A model generated the notes under the pieces. The model made no database searches and was not told the DNA's origin. It worked only from the letters and a program-made list of their open reading frames with translations. Positions 5,441 through 37,055 of a stretch of 64,000 bases of DNA are shown here, piece by piece (position 1 is the first letter of the stretch; each line of letters opens with the position of its first letter). The position numbers and the translations under genes were made by a program. This DNA is from Natronococcus sp. A-GB7. GTDB taxonomy: Archaea; Halobacteriota; Halobacteria; Halobacteriales; Natrialbaceae. The stretch lies in assembly GCF_029688865.1 (NCBI RefSeq), contig NZ_JARUKV010000024.1, forward strand, positions 1 through 64,000, written 5' to 3'.

Positions 5441-6688
5441 ATGAAGAGTGCGATGGCCGTCGTCCTTGCAGGACTACTCGTCCTCTCGGTGCCCGCAATG
5501 GCCGTTTCCGCGGCCGACGGGGAGCCGAACGAGACGGACGGGATAGTTTTCGAGACCGACGAGCCCGACCAGGGAGCGACGTTCGTCGAGGCGAACGGAA
5601 CGACGAACCGACTCGATCCCGGTGAGGAGCAGCGAAGCGAACGGGTCGAGTACGGCAGCGGTCTCGGAACGTCGCTCATGGCCGCGGACGACGAGCTCAG
5701 AGTCGACTACGAACAGGAAACGCTCGTCCGAAGCGGATTCGACAACGCCTCCGACGAGGAGCGCGAGGAGAGGGTCCAGGCGGGGTACGATCGGTTACAG
5801 GAGCGGATCGACGGACTCGAGGAGCGCGAGCGGACGGCGGTGCGGGCCCACGCGGCGGACGAACAGTCGACGGCCCAACTGCTCCAGACGTTCTCGCGGA
5901 ACTACCACGAGTCGGCGACGATCGAACGCGCACTCGACGATCTCGTCACGTACGCGAACGAGATCCCCGGCTACTCGCTCTCGACTCGAGACGACGCGAG
6001 AAAGCTGGAAATGCACCGGAGCGATACCCGATCGCAACTCGAGACGACGACGAGTCAGTCCGGCGACGACCGAAAACCGTTGGCCGTTCGGACCACCGAG
6101 ACCGGCTACACCCTCTCGTTGTTGGACCGGAACTACGTTCGGGAGACGACTCGGTTCGACAGCCGAAACACTACGCAGTCGAACCAGTTCGACGATATTA
6201 CCGACGCACACGGGACGGCCCAGGAGCTGTACCCGTGGGTGTTCGGAGCCGACCACGAGAGTCACTCCTCGGACGCCGTCGAGAGCAGGACGGGACAGCT
6301 GTACCGGATTCAGGCGATCCACGATCAGGGACACCTAACCACGTACCTCGACGGCGGGACGGGCACGGCTTACCGAGAGGTCCAGACGCTCGATTATCGC
6401 CAGTTGCCGACTATCAACAGCAGTCAGTGGCACGACGACGGACTCGTGCTCTCGATCAACGAGACCGCGGCGAACGGTCCGGCCGAAGTCGTCGTGACGG
6501 ACGCCGAAACCGGCGAGCCGGAGCCCGCCTCGGTCTCGGCCGACGGCGAAGACGTCGGCGAGACGGATTCGGACGGTTCGCTGTGGCTCCTCCCGCCCGA
6601 CGGCGAGTACGACCTGCGGGCGGAGACCGACGACGGTAGCATCGAGGGAACCGTCTCGAGTAGCGACGCTCCGAGCGACGACGAGTAG
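5441..6688 (+). CDS. Secreted haloarchaeal protein with Ig-like/carboxypeptidase-regulatory-like tail
   Basis: About 415 residues starting at the ATG placed by the TATA box at 5411-5418. A signal peptide is evident (MKSAMAVVLAGLLVLSVP, then AMAVSAADG). The middle is acidic and probably helical (ERVQAGYDRLQERIDGLEER, then ERTAVRAHAADEQ), then a beta-rich part. The last ~90 residues (VVVTDAETGEPEPASVSADG, then a GSLWLLPPDGEYDLRAE segment) resemble a carboxypeptidase-regulatory-like fold. There is no C-terminal membrane anchor. The stop overlaps an alternative pilin start by 1 nt. No known activity; the context suggests a partner of the pilin or of the divergent membrane regulator. Confidence 0.75.
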   Translation: MKSAMAVVLAGLLVLSVPAMAVSAADGEPNETDGIVFETDEPDQGATFVEANGTTNRLDPGEEQRSERVEYGSGLGTSLMAADDELRVDYEQETLVRSGFDNASDEEREERVQAGYDRLQERIDGLEERERTAVRAHAADEQSTAQLLQTFSRNYHESATIERALDDLVTYANEIPGYSLSTRDDARKLEMHRSDTRSQLETTTSQSGDDRKPLAVRTTETGYTLSLLDRNYVRETTRFDSRNTTQSNQFDDITDAHGTAQELYPWVFGADHESHSSDAVESRTGQLYRIQAIHDQGHLTTYLDGGTGTAYREVQTLDYRQLPTINSSQWHDDGLVLSINETAANGPAEVVVTDAETGEPEPASVSADGEDVGETDSDGSLWLLPPDGEYDLRAETDDGSIEGTVSSSDAPSDDE

Positions 6689-6705
6689 TGGCCGGGACCG
6701 ACTCC

Positions 6706-6712
6706 TTATATA
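6706..6712 (+). promoter_or_regulatory. TATA box for the pilin gene
   Basis: TTATATA centred at 6709, exactly 27 nt before the GTG at 6736. It lies just after the stop of the upstream gene, so the pilin has its own promoter, and it decides the start codon. Confidence 0.7.
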
Positions 6713-6735
6713 CGAAGGCGAGACCAGAGAGCGTC

Positions 6736-7233
6736 GTGTTACGGGGAACACCACGCCGAGTGTACGAGTCCAACGACCGTGGGATCAGCCCCGTGATCGG
6801 CGTAGTGCTGCTGATCGGCGTTACCGTGGCGCTGGCGACGGTCGTCGCGGTCGGGGCCGGAGGGTTGAGTCCGGAATCCCCCAAGAACCCGGTAGCGTTC
6901 GACCTCGCGGCCGACGGCAGCGAGGAGACGATCACGGTCGAACACGTCGCCGGCGATCCGATCGACGTCGAGGAGCTCACGCTGACGGTCGCAGTGAACG
7001 GTGAGCAACTCTCCGAGCAGCCGCCGATTCCCTTTGCCGGCGCCGCGGGCTTCGACCAGGCACCGAGCGGCCCGTTTAACTCGGCAAGCGAGTCGACCTG
7101 GAGCGCCGGCGAACGCTCGACGCTCTCCGTCGCGGGAACCAACGAGCCGACGATCAGCTCCGGTGACACGGTTTCCGTAACCCTCGCCGTCGACGGCCAG
7201 CAGATCGCCGCGCTCGAGACGACGGCCGACTGA
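6736..7233 (+). CDS. Type IV pilin family protein
   Basis: About 165 residues. The archaeal type IV pilin signature is clear: SNDRG, then ISPVIGVVLLIGVTVALATV. Cleavage by the prepilin peptidase (PibD) is expected after the Gly, leaving a hydrophobic N-terminal helix that packs the pilus core. The rest is an acidic, beta-rich head (residues ~50-165). An in-frame GTG at 6688 overlaps the previous stop, but the TATA box at 6706-6712 lies inside that extension and supports GTG 6736. No pilus motor genes (pilB/pilC) are nearby. It ends directly against the convergent methyltransferase stop. Confidence 0.85.
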   Translation: MLRGTPRRVYESNDRGISPVIGVVLLIGVTVALATVVAVGAGGLSPESPKNPVAFDLAADGSEETITVEHVAGDPIDVEELTLTVAVNGEQLSEQPPIPFAGAAGFDQAPSGPFNSASESTWSAGERSTLSVAGTNEPTISSGDTVSVTLAVDGQQIAALETTAD

Positions 7234-7857
7234 CTACTCGGGGGCGCGAGCGACGGTCGTGATCGCGACCTCCGGCTCGTACTCCGGCCCCATAAAGGCG
7301 TGTTTAACGTCCTCGAAACCGGCGGCTTTGAACATTCGGTCGGCCTCGTACTCGTCGTAAAACAGCATCATCGCGTCGGCGAGACGCTGTGCGATCGGGT
7401 TCTCGGGATAGTTCGGCCCGACGACCAGCACCTGGCCACCGGGTTTGAGCACGCGGCGAAACTCCCGAAGTGCCAGTATCGGGTTCGGCCAGTACTCGAT
7501 CGACCCCGACGACCAGACGACGTCGAAGCTGTCGGTCGCAAACGGGAGCCGTTCGGCGTCGCCCCGGTGGAAGTGAACCGGTGGCGCTCGCTTGCCGAAC
7601 TTCGCGTAGGCCTGCTCGAGCTGGTGTTCGCTCTGGTCGATCGCGTACACCTCGTCGACCTGCTCGAGCAGCCCCTCCGTGGCGAAACCGGTGCCACAGC
7701 CGACGTCGAGCACCGTAGCGCCGGGCTCGAACTCGAGCAACTCGAGGGCCTCGCTCCGCATTCGTTCGTTCCAGATAAACGGGTTGATGCGGTCGTACAC
7801 CTTCGAGAGGTACTTGTAGAACAGCCGAGCCCGAGCCTTGTTCTCGAGAACTCCCAT
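7234..7857 (-). CDS. Class I SAM-dependent methyltransferase (quinone-type)
   Basis: 207 residues. Motif I is LDVGCGTGF, the acidic loop is YAIDQSEHQL, motif II is FDVVWSSGSIEYW, and LKPGGQVLVVG follows. The N-terminal FYKYLSKVYDRINPFIW and overall length match haloarchaeal relatives of MPBQ/MSBQ and demethylmenaquinone methyltransferases, so quinone-ring methylation is the likely role, with the substrate unproven. ATG 7857 is chosen over an upstream start at 7971, which would add an unconserved Arg-rich extension. The stop abuts the pilin stop with no gap. Confidence 0.8.
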   Translation of the reverse strand: MGVLENKARARLFYKYLSKVYDRINPFIWNERMRSEALELLEFEPGATVLDVGCGTGFATEGLLEQVDEVYAIDQSEHQLEQAYAKFGKRAPPVHFHRGDAERLPFATDSFDVVWSSGSIEYWPNPILALREFRRVLKPGGQVLVVGPNYPENPIAQRLADAMMLFYDEYEADRMFKAAGFEDVKHAFMGPEYEPEVAITTVARAPE

Positions 7858-7975
7858 TGAAAAGAGGTTTTGATCCGACGGCAATATGTCTGCTGTTCCC
7901 GGTCGATTCGTCGTCGGACAATCGCGGACTACCGCCGACCGACGCCGCGACCGAGCGGGATACTTTCGCAACTAC

Positions 7976-8006
7976 CATATACGCGTTGCTGCAAACGTTC
8001 GTTTGC
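7976..8006 (+). promoter_or_regulatory. ATP synthase operon promoter with palindromic site
   Basis: A CATATA box (7976-7981) predicts a start near 8005. GCAAACG TT CGTTTGC, a perfect 7-bp inverted repeat, fills 7991-8006, between box and expected start and just before the atpH ATG at 8014. Its position fits a repressor operator; no binding protein can be named. Confidence 0.5.
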
Positions 8007-8013
8007 TTAGAGT

Positions 8014-8346
8014 ATGCCGAGGCCACAGGTTCTCGAACGAATTAAGTCGGCGGAAGAGGAGGCCGACGAGATCGTCGCACAGGCAGAAGACGACCGCGAC
8101 GAGCGGATAGCCGAGGCCCGGAAACGTGCCGAGGAGATTCGCACGGAAGCGGAAGAGGAGGCGCGGGATCTCAAGGAGCAGCGCCTCGAGGAGGCGCGCG
8201 ACGAGATCGACGAGGAGTGCGAGCGCGTCCTTCGCGAGGGAGAACAGGAGCGCGAGGCGCTCGCCGAGCGTGCCCAAAGCCGGGTCGACGAGGTGACCGA
8301 CTACGTCGTCGAACTGTTCCAGGAGGACGTTCATGCTCAGACCTGA
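8014..8346 (+). CDS. atpH: A-type ATP synthase subunit H
   Basis: 110 residues, almost entirely charged heptads (RIKSAEEEADEIVAQAEDDR onward), as expected for the peripheral-stalk coiled coil H (E/H heterodimer) of the archaeal A1A0 ATP synthase, which uses the ion gradient to make ATP. First gene of the cluster. Its end overlaps atpI by 14 nt (8333-8346), suggesting coupled translation. Confidence 0.9.
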   Translation: MPRPQVLERIKSAEEEADEIVAQAEDDRDERIAEARKRAEEIRTEAEEEARDLKEQRLEEARDEIDEECERVLREGEQEREALAERAQSRVDEVTDYVVELFQEDVHAQT

Positions 8347-10609
8347 GCGGATGAGCAAAGTCTCGGTGACCGGTTCCAAGGGCGTCATGCCCACGGTCAT
8401 CGAGCGTATCCACGAACTCAACCTGGTTCATCTCTCGGACTACGACGGCTCCTGGGAGGGGTTCGACAACGGCAACCCGATCGAGGGGGCCGACGACGCC
8501 TCCGAGAAGCTGGTTACCGTCCGCGCGCTCGAGAGCTCGCTCGAGCTCTCGGAAGACGACACCGCGCCGGGAACGATCGACGACGACTGGGAGGCGCGAC
8601 TCGAGCGGATCCGAACGCGGATCAACGAGCTCGACGACCGCCGTGGCGAGCTTCGCGAGCAGCACCGAGACGTCGAAGAGCGGATCGATCGGGTCGCCCC
8701 CTTCGCCGAGCTGGGGATCGACCTCGATCTGCTCGGCGGCTACGAGTCGGTCGACGTCCTCGTCGGCGAGGGCTCCGTCTCGGACGTCGAGGCGGCGCTC
8801 GATTCGGCCGAGGAGATCCGGGCGTACGAGACGTTTACCGGCGGTGACGTCGTCGCTGTCGTCGCCGAGCCGGCCGAGGGCGCCGACACCGACGCGCTCG
8901 TCGACGACGCGCTCGTCGGCATCGAGTTCGCTCGTCACCCCGTTCCCGAAACCGAACAGAGCCCCGAAGACTACGTCGCCGAGCTCGAGGCCGAGCGCGA
9001 CGAGATCGAGGGTGAACTCGACGAGATCGACGCGGAGCTCGCGGAGATCAAGGCCAAGGAGGGCTCGTTCCTGCTTCGCGTCGAGGAGGAGCTCACGATC
9101 GAGGTCCAGCGCGCGGAGGCGCCCCTGCAGTTCGCGACCAGCGATCGAGCCTTCATCGCCGAGGGCTGGATCCCGGCCGACGAGTACGAGCGCCTCGTCG
9201 AGGGGCTTCGCGACGCCGTCGGCGACAGCGTCGAGATCGAACAGCTCGAGGTCGCCGACTACGAGGAGCACGAACACGGCGCCGAGGCCCACACGGGCAG
9301 CGGCGGCGACGACGGTGACGGCAACGGCGGCGAGCCGAGCGCCGACTCCGAGACGGAGCAGCCGGCACAGCGCAAGGCCGCCACCGACGGCGGCCAGCCA
9401 CAGTCCGGTCAGGGCAAGGGCGCCGTGACGATGGACGAGGAGCCCCCGGTCATCCTCAACAACCTCACCCCGGCGAAGCCGTTCGAGCTGCTCGTCAAGA
9501 TGGTGAGCCAGCCCAAGTACAGCGAGCTCGATCCCACGCTGCTCGTGTTCCTGACCTACCCGTTCGCGTTCGGGTTTATGATCGGGGACATCGGCTACGG
9601 GATCCTCTACATGCTGATGGGTTGGGGCTGTTGGAAGCTCTTCGACTCCGACGCCGGCAAGGCGCTGGGTACGATCGGTATCTGGGCCGGCGTCTTCACG
9701 ATCCTGTTCGGCTGGCTGTACGACGATATCTTCGGCGTCCACATGGAGTACTTCGTTCCCGAAGGTATCCACGGCGTGATGCAGGACTACCTGTTCGTCG
9801 CGAGCCTCGATAAGGGGCTGCAGGCGACCGAGTGGGCGATCTTCTGGATCATCTTCAGCATCGGCTTCGGCCTGATCCACCTGAACATGGGGCTGATCCT
9901 GGGCTTCATCAACGAGCTCAGCCACGGTCTCAAAGCCGCCGTCTACGAGCGTCTGTCGTGGATCCTCGCGATGAACGGGCTGTTCATCTGGATCTTCAGC
10001 CTTCACCTGGTCGAGGAGAAACCGGACTTCCTCGTCGGCGCCACTGAAGAAGCCGTGCTCTACGACTTCTTCGGCTTTGCAGGGCTTCCCGAGGTCGTCG
10101 GACTCGTCGGACTCGCGATGTTCCTCGTGGGTGGTGTCCTCGTCGCCGTCGGCGAGGGGATCGCAGGCGTCTTCGAGGTCCCCGCGTGGGCCTTCGGCCA
10201 CGTCCTCTCGTACCTGCGGATGGTCGCCGTCCTGCTCGCGAAGGGTGGGATGGCGTTCGCAGTGAACCTGCTCGTCTTTGGTGGCTACACCCAGGACGGC
10301 TACACCGTGTTCAACCTCCCGACGTACGACGTCACGGGGTACGAACAGGACTTCGTTGGACTGGTCCACGTCGGCGACACCGCGTTGATCTCGGCGATCG
10401 GGATCCTCGCCGGCATCGTCGTCTTCGTACTCGGACACATCCTGGTGCTCCTGCTGGGGATTACCGCGGCGGGAATCCAGATGCTGCGCCTCGAGTACGT
10501 GGAGTTCTTCCAGAAGTTCTACCAGGGCGGCGGTGAGGAGTACGAACCGTTCGGTCACGAGAGCAGCGAGGAAGCGGCCTCGGCCTCGGCACAGCCACAG
10601 GCCGACTGA
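8333..10609 (+). CDS. atpI: A-type ATP synthase subunit I (a-subunit)
   Basis: 758 residues. The cytosolic N-terminal half (1-~370) contains coiled coils and a long acidic insert around residues 310-365 (HTGSGGDDGDGNGGEPSADS and on). The C-terminal half has about 7-8 membrane helices from SELDPTLLVFLTYPFAFGFM onward, forming the ion half-channels against the c-ring and the stator anchor. A second in-frame ATG at 8351 is possible. The C-terminus is Ala/Glu-rich. It overlaps atpH and is followed by a 205-nt gap before atpK. Confidence 0.92.
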   Translation: MLRPERMSKVSVTGSKGVMPTVIERIHELNLVHLSDYDGSWEGFDNGNPIEGADDASEKLVTVRALESSLELSEDDTAPGTIDDDWEARLERIRTRINELDDRRGELREQHRDVEERIDRVAPFAELGIDLDLLGGYESVDVLVGEGSVSDVEAALDSAEEIRAYETFTGGDVVAVVAEPAEGADTDALVDDALVGIEFARHPVPETEQSPEDYVAELEAERDEIEGELDEIDAELAEIKAKEGSFLLRVEEELTIEVQRAEAPLQFATSDRAFIAEGWIPADEYERLVEGLRDAVGDSVEIEQLEVADYEEHEHGAEAHTGSGGDDGDGNGGEPSADSETEQPAQRKAATDGGQPQSGQGKGAVTMDEEPPVILNNLTPAKPFELLVKMVSQPKYSELDPTLLVFLTYPFAFGFMIGDIGYGILYMLMGWGCWKLFDSDAGKALGTIGIWAGVFTILFGWLYDDIFGVHMEYFVPEGIHGVMQDYLFVASLDKGLQATEWAIFWIIFSIGFGLIHLNMGLILGFINELSHGLKAAVYERLSWILAMNGLFIWIFSLHLVEEKPDFLVGATEEAVLYDFFGFAGLPEVVGLVGLAMFLVGGVLVAVGEGIAGVFEVPAWAFGHVLSYLRMVAVLLAKGGMAFAVNLLVFGGYTQDGYTVFNLPTYDVTGYEQDFVGLVHVGDTALISAIGILAGIVVFVLGHILVLLLGITAAGIQMLRLEYVEFFQKFYQGGGEEYEPFGHESSEEAASASAQPQAD

Positions 10610-10616
10610 ATCGACG

Positions 10617-10645
10617 ACCGCGTTCGCGGTTCGTTCTTCCTTCGA
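10617..10645 (+). terminator. Possible internal terminator after atpI
   Basis: ACCGCG TT CGCGGT hairpin (10617-10630) followed by TTCGTTCTTCCTTC, a T-rich tail, 8 nt after the atpI stop. It may reduce read-through into atpK, which appears to have its own promoter. Confidence 0.4.
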
Positions 10646-10746
10646 ACTCGACCTATTTTGGTGTCCGGCCCGAAAACGGTGAGACACGTTGGCACCCGTC
10701 TAGAGGTCCGATACGACGGGATAGAAGCTTGGAACTGTTTCGAGAG

Positions 10747-10754
10747 TTTTATGG
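10747..10754 (+). promoter_or_regulatory. Candidate TATA box for atpK
   Basis: TTTTATGG in the atpI-atpK gap, predicting a transcript start near 10778 and a leader of about 37 nt before the ATG at 10815. A separate promoter would suit the many c-subunits needed per complex. Confidence 0.4.
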
Positions 10755-10814
10755 GGTGCGCAGAAACAGATACGGCTGTTCGGAGCAATCGAACCCACAG
10801 CAATTCAGACACCT

Positions 10815-11075
10815 ATGATCGAAACCCTACCAGAACTCGCCACCATCGTACTGCAGAACGGAGACGAAGCGCCCTTCCTCACCGACGTGGGTGCCGCCGC
10901 ACTCGCAGTCGGTCTCGCATCGCTCGCCGCAGGTTACGCCGAGCGAGGTATCGGCGCTGCTGCCGTCGGCGCTATCGCCGAAGACGACGACATGTTCGTT
11001 CCGGGTATCGTCATGACCGTTCTGCCGGAAACGCTCGTCATTTTCGCGATCGTCGCCATTTTCCTGGTCCAGTAA
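10815..11075 (+). CDS. atpK: A-type ATP synthase proteolipid subunit K (c-ring)
   Basis: 86 residues with two membrane helices: GAAALAVGLASLAAGYAERG and, after a polar loop (AIAEDDDMF), VPGIVMTVLPETLVIFAIVA. Glu72 in LPETLVIF is the ion-carrying carboxylate. Several copies form the rotor ring. It sits between atpI and atpE, as usual for haloarchaea, 22 nt before atpE. Confidence 0.92.
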   Translation: MIETLPELATIVLQNGDEAPFLTDVGAAALAVGLASLAAGYAERGIGAAAVGAIAEDDDMFVPGIVMTVLPETLVIFAIVAIFLVQ

Positions 11076-28864: not shown

Positions 28865-30214
28865 TCAGTCCTGCTCGTCGCCCATCGTCGGGTGGATCTC
28901 CTCCCAGTCGCTCGGCCGAACGGGGCCCTCGAGCAGCGGGTCGTCCGTCTCGAGCATCCACCCGATGAGCTCGTCCCGGAGTCGGTTTCTGACGTCCTCG
29001 TGGTCGGGATCGTCGGCGAGGTTCTCCCGCTCGTGGGGGTCGGCCTCGAGATCGTACAGCTCGACGTAGGGACGTTGCTCGCAGTAGTACTCCTCGCGGA
29101 CCTCGCTGCCGGCGGCGCTCTCGTAGATATCCTTCGTCAGATAGACCCCGGGGAGGTGCCAGAAGTTCCGGACGTACTTGTACCGCTCCGTCCGAACCGC
29201 CCGGATCGGGTTGTACCGATCGTGCCAGGTCATCCCTGCGAACAGCCGCTCTCGGGGCTCGTACTGTTCCTCACCCTCGTCGACGAGACGGCCGCGAAAA
29301 CTCCGTCCGGCGACGTTCGCGGGACTCTCGGCGCCGGCGAACTCCAGTAGCGTCGAGAAGACGTCGACGTTACTGACGAGGTCGTCGACGGCGTCGGGCT
29401 CGAGTTCGCCCGGGTACCGCATCGCCAGCGCGGCGCCGATGCCGGCGTCGTAACAGCAGCCCTTCGCCCGCGGGAACGCCAGCCCGTGTTCTGTCGTGAA
29501 GACGACGAGCGTCTCCTCGGCGAGGTCCGCCTGCTCGAGGGTGTCGAGCACTGTCCCGACGCCGTCGTCGAGCGCCTCGAGCATTCCCTGTACTTCGGCG
29601 ATGTCGCTGCGAATCCCCGGTCGGTCGGGGAGGAACGGGAGCGGCTCGACGCGCTCCGGATCGGGCGTCTCGTAGCGGTCGGCTTCGAACCTGAACCCGT
29701 CCTCTTCCTCGACCCGGTGGAGTTCGAAGAAGCCGACGGAGGCGAAGAAGGGGGTTTCGTGCTCGCCCGCCGAGAGCACCGACGCGACCTCCTCGCCGAC
29801 CTCGCGGGCGCGGGCGGTCTCGTGAACTGACGGCGGCGTATTCGCCCGCAGCGGCTCCTCGACGTGTTCGTGATCGTAACCGAGTCGGTCTGGGTACTCG
29901 GTAATATGCTGGAGACCGAACCGGTGGGTCTCGTAGCCGGCCTCGCCGAGTAGCTGCGGGAGCAGGCGTTCGTCGGGGCCGATCTCCCAGTCGCCGTGGG
30001 CGAGCCCGAGCATCCCGTTCTGGTGGGGGTGGCGTCCGGTCATCAGGCTCGAGCGACTCGGCGAACACTGCGGGGCCGTCACGAAGTGTCGGTCGAAGCG
30101 GGCCCCCTCGTCGGCGAGCCCGTCGATCCGCGGCGTGTCGACGGCCGCGCCGTAGCAGCCGAGGTAGCGCCCCAGATCGTGGCAGTGCATCAAGAGGATG
30201 TTCGGCGGGGCCAT
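28865..30214 (-). CDS. Sulfatase (formylglycine type)
   Basis: 449 residues. The catalytic signature is CSPSR at Cys50, which formylglycine-generating enzyme would convert to the active aldehyde. Metal-binding Asp/His residues sit at HCHDLGRYLGCYGA near the N-terminus and in VVFTTEHGLAFPRAKGC. No signal peptide, so a cytosolic location is likely. It hydrolyses sulfate esters of unknown identity. No formylglycine-generating enzyme lies in this window. Divergent from the Thr-type relative at 30371. Confidence 0.87.
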   Translation of the reverse strand: MAPPNILLMHCHDLGRYLGCYGAAVDTPRIDGLADEGARFDRHFVTAPQCSPSRSSLMTGRHPHQNGMLGLAHGDWEIGPDERLLPQLLGEAGYETHRFGLQHITEYPDRLGYDHEHVEEPLRANTPPSVHETARAREVGEEVASVLSAGEHETPFFASVGFFELHRVEEEDGFRFEADRYETPDPERVEPLPFLPDRPGIRSDIAEVQGMLEALDDGVGTVLDTLEQADLAEETLVVFTTEHGLAFPRAKGCCYDAGIGAALAMRYPGELEPDAVDDLVSNVDVFSTLLEFAGAESPANVAGRSFRGRLVDEGEEQYEPRERLFAGMTWHDRYNPIRAVRTERYKYVRNFWHLPGVYLTKDIYESAAGSEVREEYYCEQRPYVELYDLEADPHERENLADDPDHEDVRNRLRDELIGWMLETDDPLLEGPVRPSDWEEIHPTMGDEQD

Positions 30215-30370: not shown

Positions 30371-31855
30371 ATGAGCGAACCCAACGAGCGTGACGGAGAG
30401 TCACACACGAACGTTCGGAACGTCGTTCTCGTCGTTCTCGACACCGCTAGAGCGAAAAGCGTCAGCCCGGAGACGGCACCGACGCTGACGACGCTCGCCG
30501 AAGAGGGGACGAGCTTCGAGAACGCGTTCGCGACCGCGCCGTGGACGCTGCCCTCACACGCCTCGATGTTCACCGGCTGCTACCCGTCCGAACACGGCGC
30601 CCACGGCGGGCACACGTTCCTCGACGACGACTTCCGGACGCTGGCGGAGGCCGTCTCGGAGGGCGGGTACGAGACCGTCGGCGTCTCGAACAACACCTGG
30701 ATCACCGAGGAGTTCGGCTTCGACCGCGGGTTCGACGACCTCCGGAAGGGCTGGCAGTACATCCAGTCCGACACCGACATGGGTGCCGTCGTCAGGGGCG
30801 AGGACGTCCGCGAGAAGCTCCAGGCGACCCGCGACCGACTGTTCGAGGGGAGCCCCCTCGTCAACGCGGCGAACGTCCTCTACAGCGAGGTGCTCCAGCC
30901 CGCCGGCGACGACGGCGCCTCGCGGTCGGTCGACTGGATCGGCGACTGGCTCGAGGGGCGGGGCGACGACCCCTTCTTCCTGTTCTGTAACTTCATCGAA
31001 CCTCACGTCGAGTACGACCCGCCGCGGGAGTACGCCGAACGCTTCCTTCCCGACGACGCGAGCTACGAGGAGGCGACTGCGATCCGACAGGACCCCCGGG
31101 CCTACGACTGCGAGGACTACGACCTCACCGAGCGGGAGTTCCGGCTCCTTCGCGGACTCTACCGGGCCGAAGTCGCCTACGTCGACGACCAGCTCGCGCG
31201 GCTTCGCGAGTCGCTCGAGTCGGCCGGCGAGTGGGAGGACACCCTGCTGGTCGTCTGTGGCGACCACGGCGAGCACATCGGCGAGCACGGCTTCTTCGGC
31301 CACCAGTACAACCTCTACGACACGCTGATCAACGTTCCGCTGGTCTGTCACGGCGGCCCCTTCACCGGCGGCGGCAAACGGCGGGAGCTGGTCCAGTTGC
31401 TCGATCTCCCCGCGACGCTGCTCGAGACGGTCGGAATCGACGACCCGGAGCTGCTCGAGCAGGGTCACGGGCGGTCGTTCCACCCCGACAGCGATAGCGG
31501 GCGACGGGACGCCATCTTCGCGGAGTACGCCGCCCCCCAGCCCTCTATCGATCGCCTCGAGGCGCGCTTCGACGAGATTCCCGACCGCGTGCGGGCGTTC
31601 GATCGCCGACTCCGGGCGATCCGTACCCGCGACGAGAAGTACGTCTGCGGCGACGACGGCTTCGAGCGCTACCACGACCTCGAGGGTGATCCCGACGAGC
31701 GGACCGACCTCGCGGCCGACCGCCCCGAGCGCGCGCGGGAGCTACGGACGCGACTCGAGGAGCGCTTCGACTCGCTCGAGACGTCCGAGGCGGGCGGGGA
31801 GGTCGAGATGCAGGCCGGAACCAGGGAACGGCTGGCGGATCTGGGGTATCTCTAA
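30371..31855 (+). CDS. Sulfatase-like alkaline-phosphatase-superfamily hydrolase with Thr in place of the Cys
   Basis: 494 residues. The metal-binding N-terminus is NVVLVVLDTARAKS. The nucleophile motif is WTLPSHAS with Thr59 where sulfatases have Cys or Ser (CXPXR). The His-containing GDHGEHIGEHGFFGH segment is intact. With Thr, formylglycine cannot form, so phosphodiesterase or transferase chemistry, as in Thr-nucleophile superfamily members, is more likely. Cytosolic by sequence. It starts after an extended Shine-Dalgarno site, divergent from the Cys-type sulfatase. Confidence 0.8.
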   Translation: MSEPNERDGESHTNVRNVVLVVLDTARAKSVSPETAPTLTTLAEEGTSFENAFATAPWTLPSHASMFTGCYPSEHGAHGGHTFLDDDFRTLAEAVSEGGYETVGVSNNTWITEEFGFDRGFDDLRKGWQYIQSDTDMGAVVRGEDVREKLQATRDRLFEGSPLVNAANVLYSEVLQPAGDDGASRSVDWIGDWLEGRGDDPFFLFCNFIEPHVEYDPPREYAERFLPDDASYEEATAIRQDPRAYDCEDYDLTEREFRLLRGLYRAEVAYVDDQLARLRESLESAGEWEDTLLVVCGDHGEHIGEHGFFGHQYNLYDTLINVPLVCHGGPFTGGGKRRELVQLLDLPATLLETVGIDDPELLEQGHGRSFHPDSDSGRRDAIFAEYAAPQPSIDRLEARFDEIPDRVRAFDRRLRAIRTRDEKYVCGDDGFERYHDLEGDPDERTDLAADRPERARELRTRLEERFDSLETSEAGGEVEMQAGTRERLADLGYL

Positions 31856-31883: not shown

Positions 31884-34301
31884 CTAGTCGTCCAGTCGAG
31901 ATGAACGGTGACCGTCCACGACGGTACGCGGATCGCGTTCGCTTCCGGCTCGGAGCGTAAACGAGAACGTCGCTCCCTCACCGGGTTCGGAGTCGACCCA
32001 GATCTCGCCTCCGTGGCGCTCGACGATCCGCTGACAGAGCGCCAGCCCGATACCGGTCCCCTCGTACGCCCCGTGACTGTGGAGGCGGTCGAATACCGTG
32101 AAGATACGGTCCTGATCCTCGGGATCGATCCCGATCCCCTCGTCGTCGACTGAAATCACCCAGTCGTTGTGTCTCCGGTCGGCGCTCACGCGTATCCGCG
32201 GCGGCTCGTCGCCGCTGTAGGTGATGGCGTTGTCGAGCAAGTTCTGGAACAGCTGTCGGAGCTGGCTGGCATCGCCCTCGAGACGCGGCAGCTCCTCGAC
32301 CGTAACTTCGGCGTCGGTTTCGACGATCCGAACGTGGAGATCCTCGAGCACGTCCTCGACGACGGCGTTCAGCTCGACCGATTCGGCTGGATCGCTCAGC
32401 GTATCCACCCGGGAGTACTCGAGTAGCCCCTCGATCATCTCGCGCATTCGGTCGGCGCCGTCGATGGCGAACTCGAGAAACGCTTCGCCGTCGTCGTCGA
32501 GGTCGTCTCGGTATCGGCGCTCGATGAGTTGGAGATAGCTCGACACCATACGCAAGGGTTCTTGCAGGTCGTGGCTGGCGGCGTAGGCGAACTGTTCGAG
32601 GCGCTCGTTGGACACCTCGAGTCGTCGCTCGAACTGCTTGCGCTCGGTGATATCGGCGAGGGCGCCAGGGAACGATACCGGAGTACCGTCGTCGTCGTAC
32701 TCGACGTGGCCGCGCGCAACCACCCACCGGAGGTCGTCGTCGTCGTCCCAGACGCGGTACTCCTGTCTGTACTCTTCGCCCGATTCGATAGCGTCCTCGA
32801 CCTTCCGTTCGACACGTTCGCGATCGTCCTCGTGGATGGCCGAGGTGAACTGGTCGAACGAGATGCCCTCGGTGGCCACCTCGGGATCGATCCCGAACGT
32901 CTTGGCGAACGACGCACCCGTGACCATCCGGTCGTCGGGAATGTTCCACTCCCAGGTTCCGACGGCGCCGGCTTCTGCCGCCGCTTCCAGCCGCTCTTTT
33001 GCATCCTCGAGATACCGCTCGCGTTCGACCCGCTCGGTCACGTCGTTCGCCGTCCCCAACCATCGGATGATTTCGCCGTCCTCGTCCAGGAGCGGCGTCG
33101 CACGCGAGACGATCCAGGCAACTGTGTCGTCATTGCGAACGACTCGGTGTTCCAACTCGAAGCTGCTTTTCGTGCGAATGGCTCCGTCGATGGTCCGCCG
33201 AACGCGCGGCCGGTCTTCGGGCGGAACGTACTTATCGACCCACGACGGCCCTTGCTCGTTGACGTCCGCGATGAAATCCGCTCCCTCTAAACTGTGCACC
33301 TCGCTCCAGTCTGCGTTCGTACTGAACACCGCGTCCGACGTGGTGGTGACCAGCGCCCGGAAGCGTTCTTCGCTCTCGCGCAGCTGTTCGTACGCCTCGC
33401 GTTTTGCCTGTTGGAGTAGCTCCTGTCCGCGCAACACGATATCCGTGGCGAGCTGTGACTCCGCCGTGTCGGGTTCCTGTAGCAGCTCCTGCTCGCCGTC
33501 CGCCTGGAGTTCCTGGACGATCGGAGTGACGTCCTCGACACTGTGGATAATGTAATCGATCTCGCCCGTCGTGGTGAACACGGGCGAATTAGTCGGGCTC
33601 CACCAGCGCTCTTCGAACTCGTCGCCGTCGGACGTGCGGTCGGGGATCGGATAGTGCGTCACCGGCATAACGTCGGCCTCTCCGGTTTCCGCTACTCTCT
33701 CGAGGGATTCGCGCAGGTTTTCGACGCCCTCGGCTGGATCGTCGGGATTGTTCGGAAAGATCTCGAACAGCGACTTCCCCAGGATCTCCGCTCGATCGGT
33801 CATCGTCGCGTCCAGATAGGCATCGCTCACGGCCACGGCTTCGTAGTCGCCGGGCTGTACGATGAGATAGTTGCCGGGGACGTTCTCGAACAGTCGACGA
33901 AAGGTCGCTTCGGTGGTTTCGGTTTCCCCCCGATTACGTTCATCAGTTTCGCGAACGGTTCCGACCGCTCCCTGTGCGGGATCACTCGCGTCGAGCACGT
34001 TTACCCGCAGTTCACAACGAACCCGTTCCCCTTCGGCCGTTTCCAGGGTGAGCTCGAGCGGCTCGCCTCGCTCGGAGTCGTTCGCTCGGAGACGGTCGAT
34101 CTCGCGTTCGATCGTCTCGCTGCCGTCGCCGAAGAGCGCGGACACGTGCTCGCCGAGCAGTTCCTCTCGTGTGTACCCGGTCATCTCGACGATGACGTCG
34201 TCGACCGAGGCGAGGTGGCCGTCGGCGTCGAGTCGATAGATCCCGTCGTCGACCGTCTCGACGAGGGTACGATAGTGCTGGAGGGCCTCGGTGTCATCCA
34301 T
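31884..34301 (-). CDS. Multi-PAS sensor histidine kinase
   Basis: About 805 residues from ATG 34301 (MDDTEALQHYRTLVE); an in-frame ATG at 34346 adds 15 residues. Four PAS domains can be traced: ~5-110, ~115-255, ~310-430 and ~440-560. HisKA follows with the phospho-acceptor His577 (AASHDLQEPLR), and HATPase_c has NLLDNAI, DEGIGID and GTGIGLAL. No membrane segments, so it is a cytosolic kinase, presumably sensing light, redox or ligand through PAS. The partner regulator is unknown; a single-domain response regulator lies about 10 kb away. Confidence 0.92.
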   Translation of the reverse strand: MDDTEALQHYRTLVETVDDGIYRLDADGHLASVDDVIVEMTGYTREELLGEHVSALFGDGSETIEREIDRLRANDSERGEPLELTLETAEGERVRCELRVNVLDASDPAQGAVGTVRETDERNRGETETTEATFRRLFENVPGNYLIVQPGDYEAVAVSDAYLDATMTDRAEILGKSLFEIFPNNPDDPAEGVENLRESLERVAETGEADVMPVTHYPIPDRTSDGDEFEERWWSPTNSPVFTTTGEIDYIIHSVEDVTPIVQELQADGEQELLQEPDTAESQLATDIVLRGQELLQQAKREAYEQLRESEERFRALVTTTSDAVFSTNADWSEVHSLEGADFIADVNEQGPSWVDKYVPPEDRPRVRRTIDGAIRTKSSFELEHRVVRNDDTVAWIVSRATPLLDEDGEIIRWLGTANDVTERVERERYLEDAKERLEAAAEAGAVGTWEWNIPDDRMVTGASFAKTFGIDPEVATEGISFDQFTSAIHEDDRERVERKVEDAIESGEEYRQEYRVWDDDDDLRWVVARGHVEYDDDGTPVSFPGALADITERKQFERRLEVSNERLEQFAYAASHDLQEPLRMVSSYLQLIERRYRDDLDDDGEAFLEFAIDGADRMREMIEGLLEYSRVDTLSDPAESVELNAVVEDVLEDLHVRIVETDAEVTVEELPRLEGDASQLRQLFQNLLDNAITYSGDEPPRIRVSADRRHNDWVISVDDEGIGIDPEDQDRIFTVFDRLHSHGAYEGTGIGLALCQRIVERHGGEIWVDSEPGEGATFSFTLRAGSERDPRTVVDGHRSSRLDD

Positions 34302-34502
34302 CTCTCCCCAGAACGTCAGTTCGGAAGACCCGGCCCGGTCGTTCATATATTTCCTAGAGACCCTCGACTCGGATAAGGCCCGTGTTCGGACCGTTCCCCG
34401 CACTGTTCGGCAATCCGAGATCGAACGGTACTGCACCGAAAGATATTTTCTATGACACGATCGCGTGCTCCGCCGGGGTGGCGACAGCGCTCACGGCTAC
34501 CG

Positions 34503-34532: not shown

Positions 34533-37055
34533 GTGTCCGATACCCGCGCGGAGACGAGCAGTTGTCGGCTCTGTGGCGCCGACGTCGGCGACGGTGAGCG
34601 GTTCTGCTCGAGGGGCTGCCGGGAGATCCACGAGACCCTCGGCGAGCCGCCCGAGGACGGAAGCGACGAGCAGCCCGCCGACGCGACGGGCTCGAGCGCC
34701 ACAGCCGACGACGCGGCCCGCGCGTTCTTCCGGATCGACGGGATGTACTCCGCGCTCTGTGAGGCCTACCTCGAGTCCGTCGCCGAGAAACGGGAGGGTG
34801 TCCGTGAGGCGACCGCAAGCTACGTCACCGAGACGGTGCGGGTCGACTACGATCCCGCGCTGACCTCGGCCGACGAGCTCCGCTCGGCCCTGACCACGAC
34901 CGGGTACACGGCCTACCGCCGGGACGGGGTCGCCGGCAGGGACTCGTCGGCGGAGGGCGACGGGGACGGCGGGGACCGCGGGAACGACTCGAGCGAGACC
35001 ACCCACCGCTCCCGGGAGATGACGGGGCTGCGCAAGCGGCGCAGCGAGGACGTCCTCGAGATGCGCTACGTCGTCGGGATCGTCTTCGGCTCCTTTCTGC
35101 TGGTGCCGTACGTCACCATCCTCTACCCGGTCTACCTCGCGGACATCGTCGACTGGCGGTTTCTCGCACCGTACGAGGGGGCGTTCGCGACCCTCGACGG
35201 GCTGATACTGCTGCCGCTGTTCCTGTCCGTCACCGGCGCCGTTCTCTACCTGAGCGGGATGCCCCTGCTCCGGGGCGCCTACGTCAGCCTGCGGCTCCGC
35301 CGGCCGAACACCCAGCTGCTGGCCGCCGTCACCGTCGTCGCCGCCTTCGCCTACGGCACCGTCGCGCTCGCGCTCGGGCGCAACGACGTCTACTACGACC
35401 TGACGATCCTGGTCGCAGCGACGGTGATGGCGGCGCTGTTCTACGAGGCGACGGTCAAACGGCGGGCGCTGGCCCGGCTCACCGACCTCACCGTTTCGGA
35501 CGTCGGCGAGGCCCGTCTCCTCGAGGCCGACGGGACGACCCGGACGGTGCCGACCGAGCGGCTGGCCGCGGGCGATCGGCTGCTCGTCCGCGAGGGCGAG
35601 CGGATCCCGGTCGACGGCCGGCTCGCGGAGGGGAGCTGCACGGTCGACGAGGCGGTCGTCACCGGGGAGTCGCTCCCGGTCTCGAAAGGGGCGGGCGACG
35701 ACGCCGTCGGCGGCTCGCTCGTCGTCTCCGGTGCAGCGGTCGTCGACGCTGCCGACAGAACCGAGAGTAGCCTCGAGCGCCTCACCGAGACGGTCTGGAA
35801 CCTCCAGAGCGCGACCCACGGGGTCAGTCGGCGGGCCGACCGCCTCGCCGCGCGTGCGACCCCGCCGGTCGCCCTCGCCGTGGCAGGCGTCGGCGCGGCC
35901 GCGCTCGCGCTGGGCTGGGACGCGCCGATGGCCGTCACGGCCGTTCTGGCAACCGCGATCGTCGCGACCCCGTGGGCGCTCGGCCTCGCGGCCCCGGTTT
36001 CGGTCGCGACGAGCATTCAGGAGGCGCTGGATCGGGGGATCGTCGTCTTCGACGAGACGGTGTTCGAACGGCTCCGGGAGGTCGACGTCGTCGTCTTCGA
36101 CAAGACGGGAACGTTGACGACCGGCGAGATGCGGGTGCTCGAGGCCGACGCGCCACCGGAGCTGCTCCGGGCCGCGGGCGCACTCGAGGATCGGGCGGCC
36201 CACCCGGCCGCGACCGCGATCCGAGACGCCTTCTCCGGCTGGAACGAGTCCGGAGACGGCGAGGACGGAGCCGACGCGGGGGAAACGGCCGTCGGGGACG
36301 GTGCCGACACTCCGCCGACCGTCCGGGAGTTCGACTCCCACGAGACCGGCGTCGAGGGCGTCGTCGACGGACGACGGGTGCTGGTCGGTCACCCGGACCT
36401 GTTCCGCGAGCGGGGCTGGACGCTCGAGGGTGATCTCGCCTCACGGGCTGCGACGGCTCGCGAGCGCGGTCGGCTCCCGGTCCTCGTCGGTACCGACGGC
36501 CGGGCAAGCGGGATCATCGTCGTCGGGGACGAGCCCCGCAGCGAGTGGGTCGAGAGCCTGACCCGGCTCCAGGACGCGGGCGTCGAGGTCGTCGTTCTCA
36601 CCGGCGACGACACGGCTGCGAGCGCGTTCCTCGAGCGGCGGGCCGACCTGGCACACGTCTTCGCGGACGTCCCGCCGGCCGGCAAGACCGCGGCGATCGA
36701 GCGGCTGGCGGCGGACCGACGGGTGGCGATGGTCGGCGACGGGACCAACGACGCGCCTGCGCTGGCCGCGGCGGATCTGGGGATCTCGCTGGGCGGGGGC
36801 ACCGCGCTCGCCGCCGACGCCGCCGACCTCGCGATCCTCGGGGATGATCTGGCCGGCGTCGAGCGGGCGATCGCGCTCGCTCGAGCCGCGGGAGATCGCG
36901 CCACTCAGAACCTCCGGCTGGCGCTTTCGTACAACGCGATCGTGATTCCGATCGCACTGGCCGGACTGTTGAGCCCGCTGATGACGGCGGCCGCGCTCGC
37001 GGTAACTGTCTCGCTCGTCGCCGCGAACGCCTCGCGGCCGCTGCTCGACCGGTAG
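34533..37055 (+). CDS. P1B-type (heavy-metal) ATPase with altered metal site
   Basis: About 840 residues from the GTG at 34533. N-terminus: a four-Cys module (Cys11, Cys14, Cys25, Cys29; CRLCG...FCSRGC) like that of CcoI/FixI-type copper ATPases. Then a degenerate HMA domain with GMYSALC at 70-76 (Ser for the first metal-binding Cys). ATPase motifs are intact: TGESLPVSKG, DKTGTLT (Asp523), HP in AAHPAATAI, GDGTNDAPAL. The membrane metal motif CPC reads TPW (479-481), and the usual MXXSS in the last helix is not seen (VTVSL). It is a P1B pump by architecture, but its transported ion is uncertain. Confidence 0.88.
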   Translation: MSDTRAETSSCRLCGADVGDGERFCSRGCREIHETLGEPPEDGSDEQPADATGSSATADDAARAFFRIDGMYSALCEAYLESVAEKREGVREATASYVTETVRVDYDPALTSADELRSALTTTGYTAYRRDGVAGRDSSAEGDGDGGDRGNDSSETTHRSREMTGLRKRRSEDVLEMRYVVGIVFGSFLLVPYVTILYPVYLADIVDWRFLAPYEGAFATLDGLILLPLFLSVTGAVLYLSGMPLLRGAYVSLRLRRPNTQLLAAVTVVAAFAYGTVALALGRNDVYYDLTILVAATVMAALFYEATVKRRALARLTDLTVSDVGEARLLEADGTTRTVPTERLAAGDRLLVREGERIPVDGRLAEGSCTVDEAVVTGESLPVSKGAGDDAVGGSLVVSGAAVVDAADRTESSLERLTETVWNLQSATHGVSRRADRLAARATPPVALAVAGVGAAALALGWDAPMAVTAVLATAIVATPWALGLAAPVSVATSIQEALDRGIVVFDETVFERLREVDVVVFDKTGTLTTGEMRVLEADAPPELLRAAGALEDRAAHPAATAIRDAFSGWNESGDGEDGADAGETAVGDGADTPPTVREFDSHETGVEGVVDGRRVLVGHPDLFRERGWTLEGDLASRAATARERGRLPVLVGTDGRASGIIVVGDEPRSEWVESLTRLQDAGVEVVVLTGDDTAASAFLERRADLAHVFADVPPAGKTAAIERLAADRRVAMVGDGTNDAPALAAADLGISLGGGTALAADAADLAILGDDLAGVERAIALARAAGDRATQNLRLALSYNAIVIPIALAGLLSPLMTAAALAVTVSLVAANASRPLLDR

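Follow-up and report, generated by a model that had tools for sequence, protein, structure and literature searches.

The ATPase gene and its surroundings

The 64,000-nucleotide stretch of Natronococcus DNA analysed here (the window) carries a gene for a P-type ATPase whose M4 motif has tryptophan in place of the second cysteine of CPC, and which we refer to, together with its relatives, as an xPW ATPase (Table 1). An ATG at 34452 offers an alternative, longer start; the start at 34533 is supported by a 92%-identical orthologue (L009) that has only 839 codons between stops. The protein matches PF00122, PF00702 and PF00403, and its score of 385.9 bits against TIGR01525, the general heavy-metal ATPase model, lies above the cutoff of 346.25. 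This score, an eight-helix transmembrane architecture and the HMA domain are those of a P1B heavy-metal ATPase. Scores fall below the cutoffs of the copper subfamily model TIGR01511 (343.9 bits, cutoff 397) and the cadmium subfamily model TIGR01512 (273.4 bits, cutoff 313.5). An AlphaFold2 model (pLDDT 82.2, pTM 0.79) contains the P1B helix set MA, MB and M1-M6, with M4 broken at 479-482; its top match in the PDB is LpCopA (4bbj), and KdpB appears among the fold matches.

The original prediction, made from the sequence of this stretch, was that the ATPase catalytic motifs are intact while the residues of the metal path are altered. The catalytic part of that statement stands, given that TGES, DKTGT, HP and GDGTND are all present, and the motifs of an active P-type ATPase (DKTGT, TGES, GDGxND and HP) are found in the xPW clade described below.

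Table 1. Positions in the window of the ATPase gene, its motifs and domains, and the neighbouring sulfatase-family genes
Feature	Coordinates	Strand	Remarks
xPW P-type ATPase gene	34533..37055	+	840 aa, GTG start, translated without stop
N-terminal four-Cys module, C11xxC14-x10-C25SxGC29	34563..34619	+	alignment
HMA domain, SxxC (S73, C76) not CxxC; motif GMYSALC	34728..34910	+	PF00403, E 5.9e-10
Helix MA, residues 166-202	35028..35138	+	model secondary structure; tightened, including Y179, F185, F188, P192
T260 replacing entry methionine (AfCopA M158 equivalent; NMD to NTQ)	35310..35312	+	T in 51/60 versus M in 41/42
C369, new invariant A-domain Cys, 8 residues before TGES	35637..35639	+	A/G in CPC clade
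TGES dephosphorylation motif, 377-380	35661..35672	+	near-invariant in alignment
TPW (479-481) at CPC position, in M4 helix break	35967..35975	+	codons acc ccg tgg; AlphaFold2 model
DKTGT phosphorylation motif, 523-527	36099..36113	+	invariant in alignment
HP motif, N domain, 557-558	36201..36206	+	invariant in alignment
GDGTND hinge motif, 735-740	36735..36752	+	invariant in alignment
Y800-N801 of M5, sole surviving copper-site part	36930..36935	+	59/59 members with a residue there
Helix M6 (815-834) without MxxSS	36975..37034	+	822 = V/L/A, 826 = G/A
Sulfatase-family gene	28865..30214	-	adjoins the next
Sulfatase-family gene	30371..31855	+	adjoins the previous

Upstream of the ATPase gene are two sulfatases and a PAS histidine kinase, and downstream is an MFS transporter. 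The kinase gene (850 aa, 31884-34436, minus strand) sits between sulfatase and ATPase and is missing from the corresponding locus of a sister strain (L038). One sulfatase gene has a CSPSR motif of the formylglycine type and the other reads TLPSH at the same place, which makes the TLPSH protein unlikely to be a classical sulfatase. At about 10 Natrialbaceae loci the second sulfatase gene remains in the neighbourhood of the ATPase. A sulfatase was rejected as a functional partner, given that no more than 8 of the 96 distinct members have one immediately upstream, and these are all Natronococcus- or Natronorubrum-like, which amounts to local synteny.

Altered residues of the metal path

P1B ATPases carry cysteine or histidine in the M4 motif (CPx, SPC or TPC). 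Neither is found in the window protein, which reads T479-P480-W481, as originally noted. At position 481, tryptophan is present in 60 of 60 aligned members of the xPW clade and cysteine in 42 of 42 members of the CPC sister clade. The P1B-1 copper triad of CPC, YN and MxxSS is thereby reduced to YN alone. Helix M6, which reads SPLMTAAALAVTVSLVAANASRP, contains none of the motifs MxxSS, MSxST, DxG or HEGxT, bearing out the earlier reading that MxxSS is absent from the last helix, and the xPW clade as a whole has kept none of the M6 class motifs of P1B ATPases. The equivalent of AfCopA M711 is V/L/A822 (V in 27 members, L in 17, A in 10 and F in 2; M in 42 CPC sisters), and positions 825-826 are T/S/G and G/A, against SS in 42 of 42 sisters. 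A Zn/Cd (P1B-2) assignment is likewise not supported, with TIGR01512 below its cutoff and no DxG in M6, and neither the P1B-3 combination (CPH with MSxST) nor that of P1B-4 (SPC with HEGxT) occurs in the window protein.

Changes of the same kind are seen nearer the entry and the N-terminus. Two methionines of helix MA are replaced by S/T187 and L190. The HMA pair is SxxC, as had been read from the window, and position 73 across the clade is S in 47 members, A in 6 and C in 4, with C76 retained in 58 of 60. The HMA motif of four xPW ATPases (L066, L132, L137 and L141) is GMHAAHDE, which lacks both cysteines. The window N-terminus has the form CRLC-x10-CSRGC, where the second half corresponds to CCxGC in the sister clade; C11, C14, C25 and C29 are retained in 52-56 of 60 xPW members, and position 26 is S in 52 of them versus C in 42 of 42 sisters. 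The proposed resemblance of this module to CcoI/FixI holds at the level of the family, through a weak PF12156 match in the sister clade (E 0.0084), and fails for the window protein itself, which has no such match.

The alignment shows that, in the xPW clade, the second cysteine of CPC has become an invariant tryptophan, the Met-Ser-Ser of M6 has decayed and the entry methionines have been replaced. The soft ligands that are lost are those at the T260 site, MA positions 187 and 190, C479 and C481, M822 and S826, and HMA C73. New conserved positions have also appeared. Helix MA has the new invariants Y179, F185 and F188, and C369 is kept in 60 of 60 aligned and 91 of 91 scored members. S490 is near-invariant (58/60), and hydroxyls are conserved at T260 and T267 (51/60 each) and at S494 (48/60). 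A simple two-cysteine sensor formed by C76 and C369 was considered and rejected: the proteins of L066 and L070 lack C76 yet keep C369.

Origin and distribution of the xPW clade

In a tree of xPW and CPC ATPases that leaves out the motif columns, all 60 xPW sequences form one group (support 100), with a single change between tryptophan and other residues. This group joins haloarchaeal CPC ATPases, to which it is 42-50% identical. The M4 motif of the 96 distinct members is SPW in 74, CPW in 14, TPW in 4 and APW in 4, with tryptophan in 96 of 96. Family alignment had been proposed as a way of asking whether TPW is conserved in a clade; Pro-Trp defines the clade, and TPW as such does not. Judged from this alignment, the clade signature is P-W, with the first position free among small residues and TPW the version of the window lineage. 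The threonine is a recent S-to-T change, as indicated by SPW in the nearest relatives of the window. CPC at the same locus, which had been named as the finding that would point to recent loss or error, was not seen: orthologues carry SPW, CPW, TPW or APW, and CPC is confined to paralogues. Sequencing error or recent loss is also rejected by the invariance of the tryptophan in the 96 distinct members.

About 65 of the 73 Natrialbaceae genomes sampled have an xPW ATPase, counted by at least 52% identity to the query, a range that always corresponded to xPW in the loci that were read. Outside this family, members are sporadic and often plasmid-borne, and a phylum sample of 158 genomes gave no match at E 1e-90 among those from outside Halobacteria. 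The window genome encodes seven other P1B ATPases, two of which are CcoI-like CPC paralogues (L002 and L003). All of these other paralogues keep the M6 motif of their class, with MSxST and HEGST in the CPH and SPC proteins.

An 843-aa CPW protein is 100% identical between Haloarcula and a genome of another family; loci with this ATPase are L058, L118 (H. marismortui pNG600) and L133. Profile scores for the CPW ATPase are equal in five genomes of three families (G088, G215, G305, G330 and G346). The identity across two families indicates recent transfer, the equal scores point likewise, and together this suggests a very recent spread of a copper island carrying the CPW ATPase. The Haloarcula-type CPW group retains the full CxxC of the HMA domain. 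In a distant haloarchaeon (L138), the frame of a P1B-2 type (CPCAFVVS) ATPase is followed directly by that of an SPW ATPase, so that the two touch (6264-8610 and 8581-10981, plus strand), and the HMA motif of the SPW protein is without any cysteine.

Constraint on the ion path and the headpiece

The dN/dS of the xPW ATPase is 0.11-0.26. Constraint along the protein was measured as weighted column entropy in the xPW clade versus the CPC sister clade, whose mean pairwise identities are equal (0.572 and 0.577). Entropy is raised in M1, M3, M4, M5 and M6, with M6 the most relaxed (+0.82 bits), and lowered in the first P-domain segment (-0.59), in helix MA (-0.72 bits) and in the HMA, A and N domains. 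Taken together, the ion-path helices M1 and M3-M6 change by +0.55 bits versus -0.23 for the headpiece, with a p value of 6e-28 that is descriptive since columns are treated as independent. When the ligand columns are left out, the contrast between core helices and headpiece still has a (descriptive) p value of 2e-26. Two CPC subclades compared likewise gave 0.04 versus 0.06 (p 0.69), random halves gave -0.02 +/- 0.05 against the observed 0.79, and the inversion is seen in both xPW subgroups. No invariant polar position was found in the M6 core of the xPW clade. The dN/dS values and the entropy shifts indicate an ATPase that is under selection and whose ion path is held less tightly, and at the level of sequence they show strong purifying selection on the headpiece.

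Genomic context

At least three copper, zinc or respiration genes surround the ATPase in 21 of 57 xPW loci with long flanks, compared with 1 of 30 CPC loci and 0 of 20 random loci, the last being chromosomal stretches, such that plasmid position is uncontrolled. Furthermore, many xPW islands are related by transfer, and the 21 loci do not equal 21 independent events. The islands include genes for halocyanin, multicopper oxidase, a CPH Cu-ATPase, a P1B-2 ATPase, CDF and DsbA/B proteins, COX15, SCO, oxidase subunits and cydAB. This context belongs to the plasmid members; it is absent around the chromosomal Natrialbaceae copies, and no metal gene is near the window copy.

In 22 of 57 loci, which are plasmid copper islands, the ATPase has as its neighbour a polytopic membrane protein (about 400 aa) that carries a conserved CTCGCCGP motif (L050:10993-12195, minus strand; L047, L049, L052, L054, L058, L118, L142 and others). 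It has no Pfam match and did not occur in the 30 CPC loci or the 20 random loci compared alongside. As a general partner it was rejected, because the window genome and almost all of its relatives lack it, and no partner common to all xPW lineages was found.

Discussion

The xPW ATPase is unexplained by the existing P1B classes, and our literature searches on P1B ATPases without CPC or CPx found nothing relevant, nor any mention of an SPW, TPW or CPW motif in this sense. The lineage arose within the group formed by CcoI/FixI (CopA2-type P1B-1) and the haloarchaeal CPC ATPases, and shares their architecture of HMA domain, eight transmembrane helices and headpiece, with a similar N-terminal Cys module. 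Unlike them, it has xPW for CPC, no MxxSS, a mostly SxxC HMA motif, no entry methionine, the new C369 and an inverted pattern of constraint. CopA (LpCopA 4bbj, AfCopA 7r0g) is its best fold match and shares the broken M4 and the YN of M5, but the other Cu+ ligands of CopA are all missing. The P1B-5 motif is TPC, and in P1B-3, P1B-4 and P1B-5 pumps the third position is His or Cys, never Trp, and M6 carries a class motif, unlike xPW. In P1B-3 (CPH) and P1B-4 (SPC), the residues flanking the proline can vary with metal class (class list, PMC7558416). The comparison with KdpB is one of analogy only, as no KdpA/C-like partner was found next to xPW genes. In the KdpFABC complex, KdpB is a P-type ATPase for which a partner subunit supplies the ion path.

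We put at slightly less than one half the probability that this is a P1B-derived ATPase that does not pump thiophilic metals through the canonical site and acts instead as a conformational or regulatory ATPase. Under such a scheme the ATP/phosphoenzyme cycle would still run, Cu+ or another thiophilic metal would no longer pass the canonical M4-M6 site, and the output would be conformational, relayed by way of the two N-terminal parts that became more constrained, helix MA and the HMA domain. Candidates for sensing metal or redox state are C369 and C76 of the HMA domain. The protein may thus serve as a regulatory or accessory ATPase descended from a CcoI/FixI-like cuproprotein-assembly ATPase, with copper and respiratory functions perhaps still served in the plasmid lineages. 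There is precedent in that CcoI C417A/C419A does not translocate Cu and retains ~70% of its ATPase activity (PMC8475189), which means that hydrolysis need not be coupled to transport. Given also that ATPase activity in CcoI seems to be regulated by its N-terminal site 1 (PMC8475189), it is plausible that a CcoI-like protein gave rise to an uncoupled regulatory descendant. Even so, several features count against a non-pumping ATPase. The hydroxyls of T260, T267, S490 and S494 align with the entry side and YN is retained, which could constitute a re-purposed substrate site. The lack of a partner common to all lineages and of metal genes around the window copy, and the persistence of C369 where C76 is lost, weigh on the same side. 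Moreover, a P-type ATPase without a transported substrate would be unusual.

In the rival view of a retargeted pump, a hydroxyl-lined entry (T260, T267, S479, S490 and S494), W481 and YN would serve the export of protons, of hard cations, or of polar or organic ones. Positions 479, 490 and 494 are spaced for one face of M4, the Ser/Thr residues at 260, 267, 490 and 494 are conserved, W481 and YN are invariant, and the protein is under purifying selection. We nevertheless consider this less likely than a conformational or regulatory role. Known P1B retargetings keep an invariant polar M6 motif, as do the CPC, CPH and SPC pumps of this very genome, whereas M6 is here the most relaxed helix and its core lacks an invariant polar position. 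On account of this relaxed M6 without a class motif, and of the tightened MA, HMA domain and headpiece, we favour a conformational or regulatory role rather than retargeting. Since the ion path, M6 included, has loosened instead of being specified anew, movement of a metal by a new site becomes the least favoured of the three options originally offered (the others being another substrate and an assembly factor of altered chemistry).

Residual handling of copper at low affinity, with YN, W481 (through a cation-pi contact) and the remaining cysteine of CPW members as Cu+ ligands, draws on the descent from a CcoI-like copper clade, on the halocyanin, multicopper oxidase and Cu-ATPase genes beside plasmid members, and on the one M4 cysteine of the CPW proteins, to which the Haloarcula type adds an intact HMA CxxC. 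In AfCopA, Cu+ enters at M158 with the CPC cysteines and is bound with high affinity at CPC, YN and MxxSS, and mutations in any of these three impair binding, which is lost in CPC or MxxSS mutants (PMC9433437). CcoI with alanine at both CPC cysteines loses transport (PMC8475189). Most xPW members, that of the window included, have no cysteine at either position and no M6 methionine, and the genome has seven other P1B pumps. Residual Cu+ transport is accordingly improbable overall, least likely for the window protein and somewhat more open for CPW members with an intact HMA motif. A decaying paralogue or sequencing artefact without function, to which the lost metal ligands might point, has almost no probability left: the dN/dS values, the single ancient origin, the invariant catalytic motifs and the presence in most genomes of the family speak against it, and conservation across the clade rules it out.

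P1B ATPases are classified and annotated through the M4 motif, and RefSeq names for xPW proteins are ‘cation-translocating’ or ‘heavy metal translocating’. What these names cover is a monophyletic clade, nearly universal in Natrialbaceae, in which the ion path has lost nearly all its soft ligands and the ATPase core has tightened. More tentatively than for the protein itself, we propose that the clade may be a non-pumping P1B lineage, retained by many haloarchaeal genera as an ATPase with a conformational or regulatory role in copper and respiratory physiology. The clade would represent either a natural separation of ATP hydrolysis from metal transport or a new substrate class, and both alternatives are directly testable, the CPC paralogues in these genomes serving as controls.
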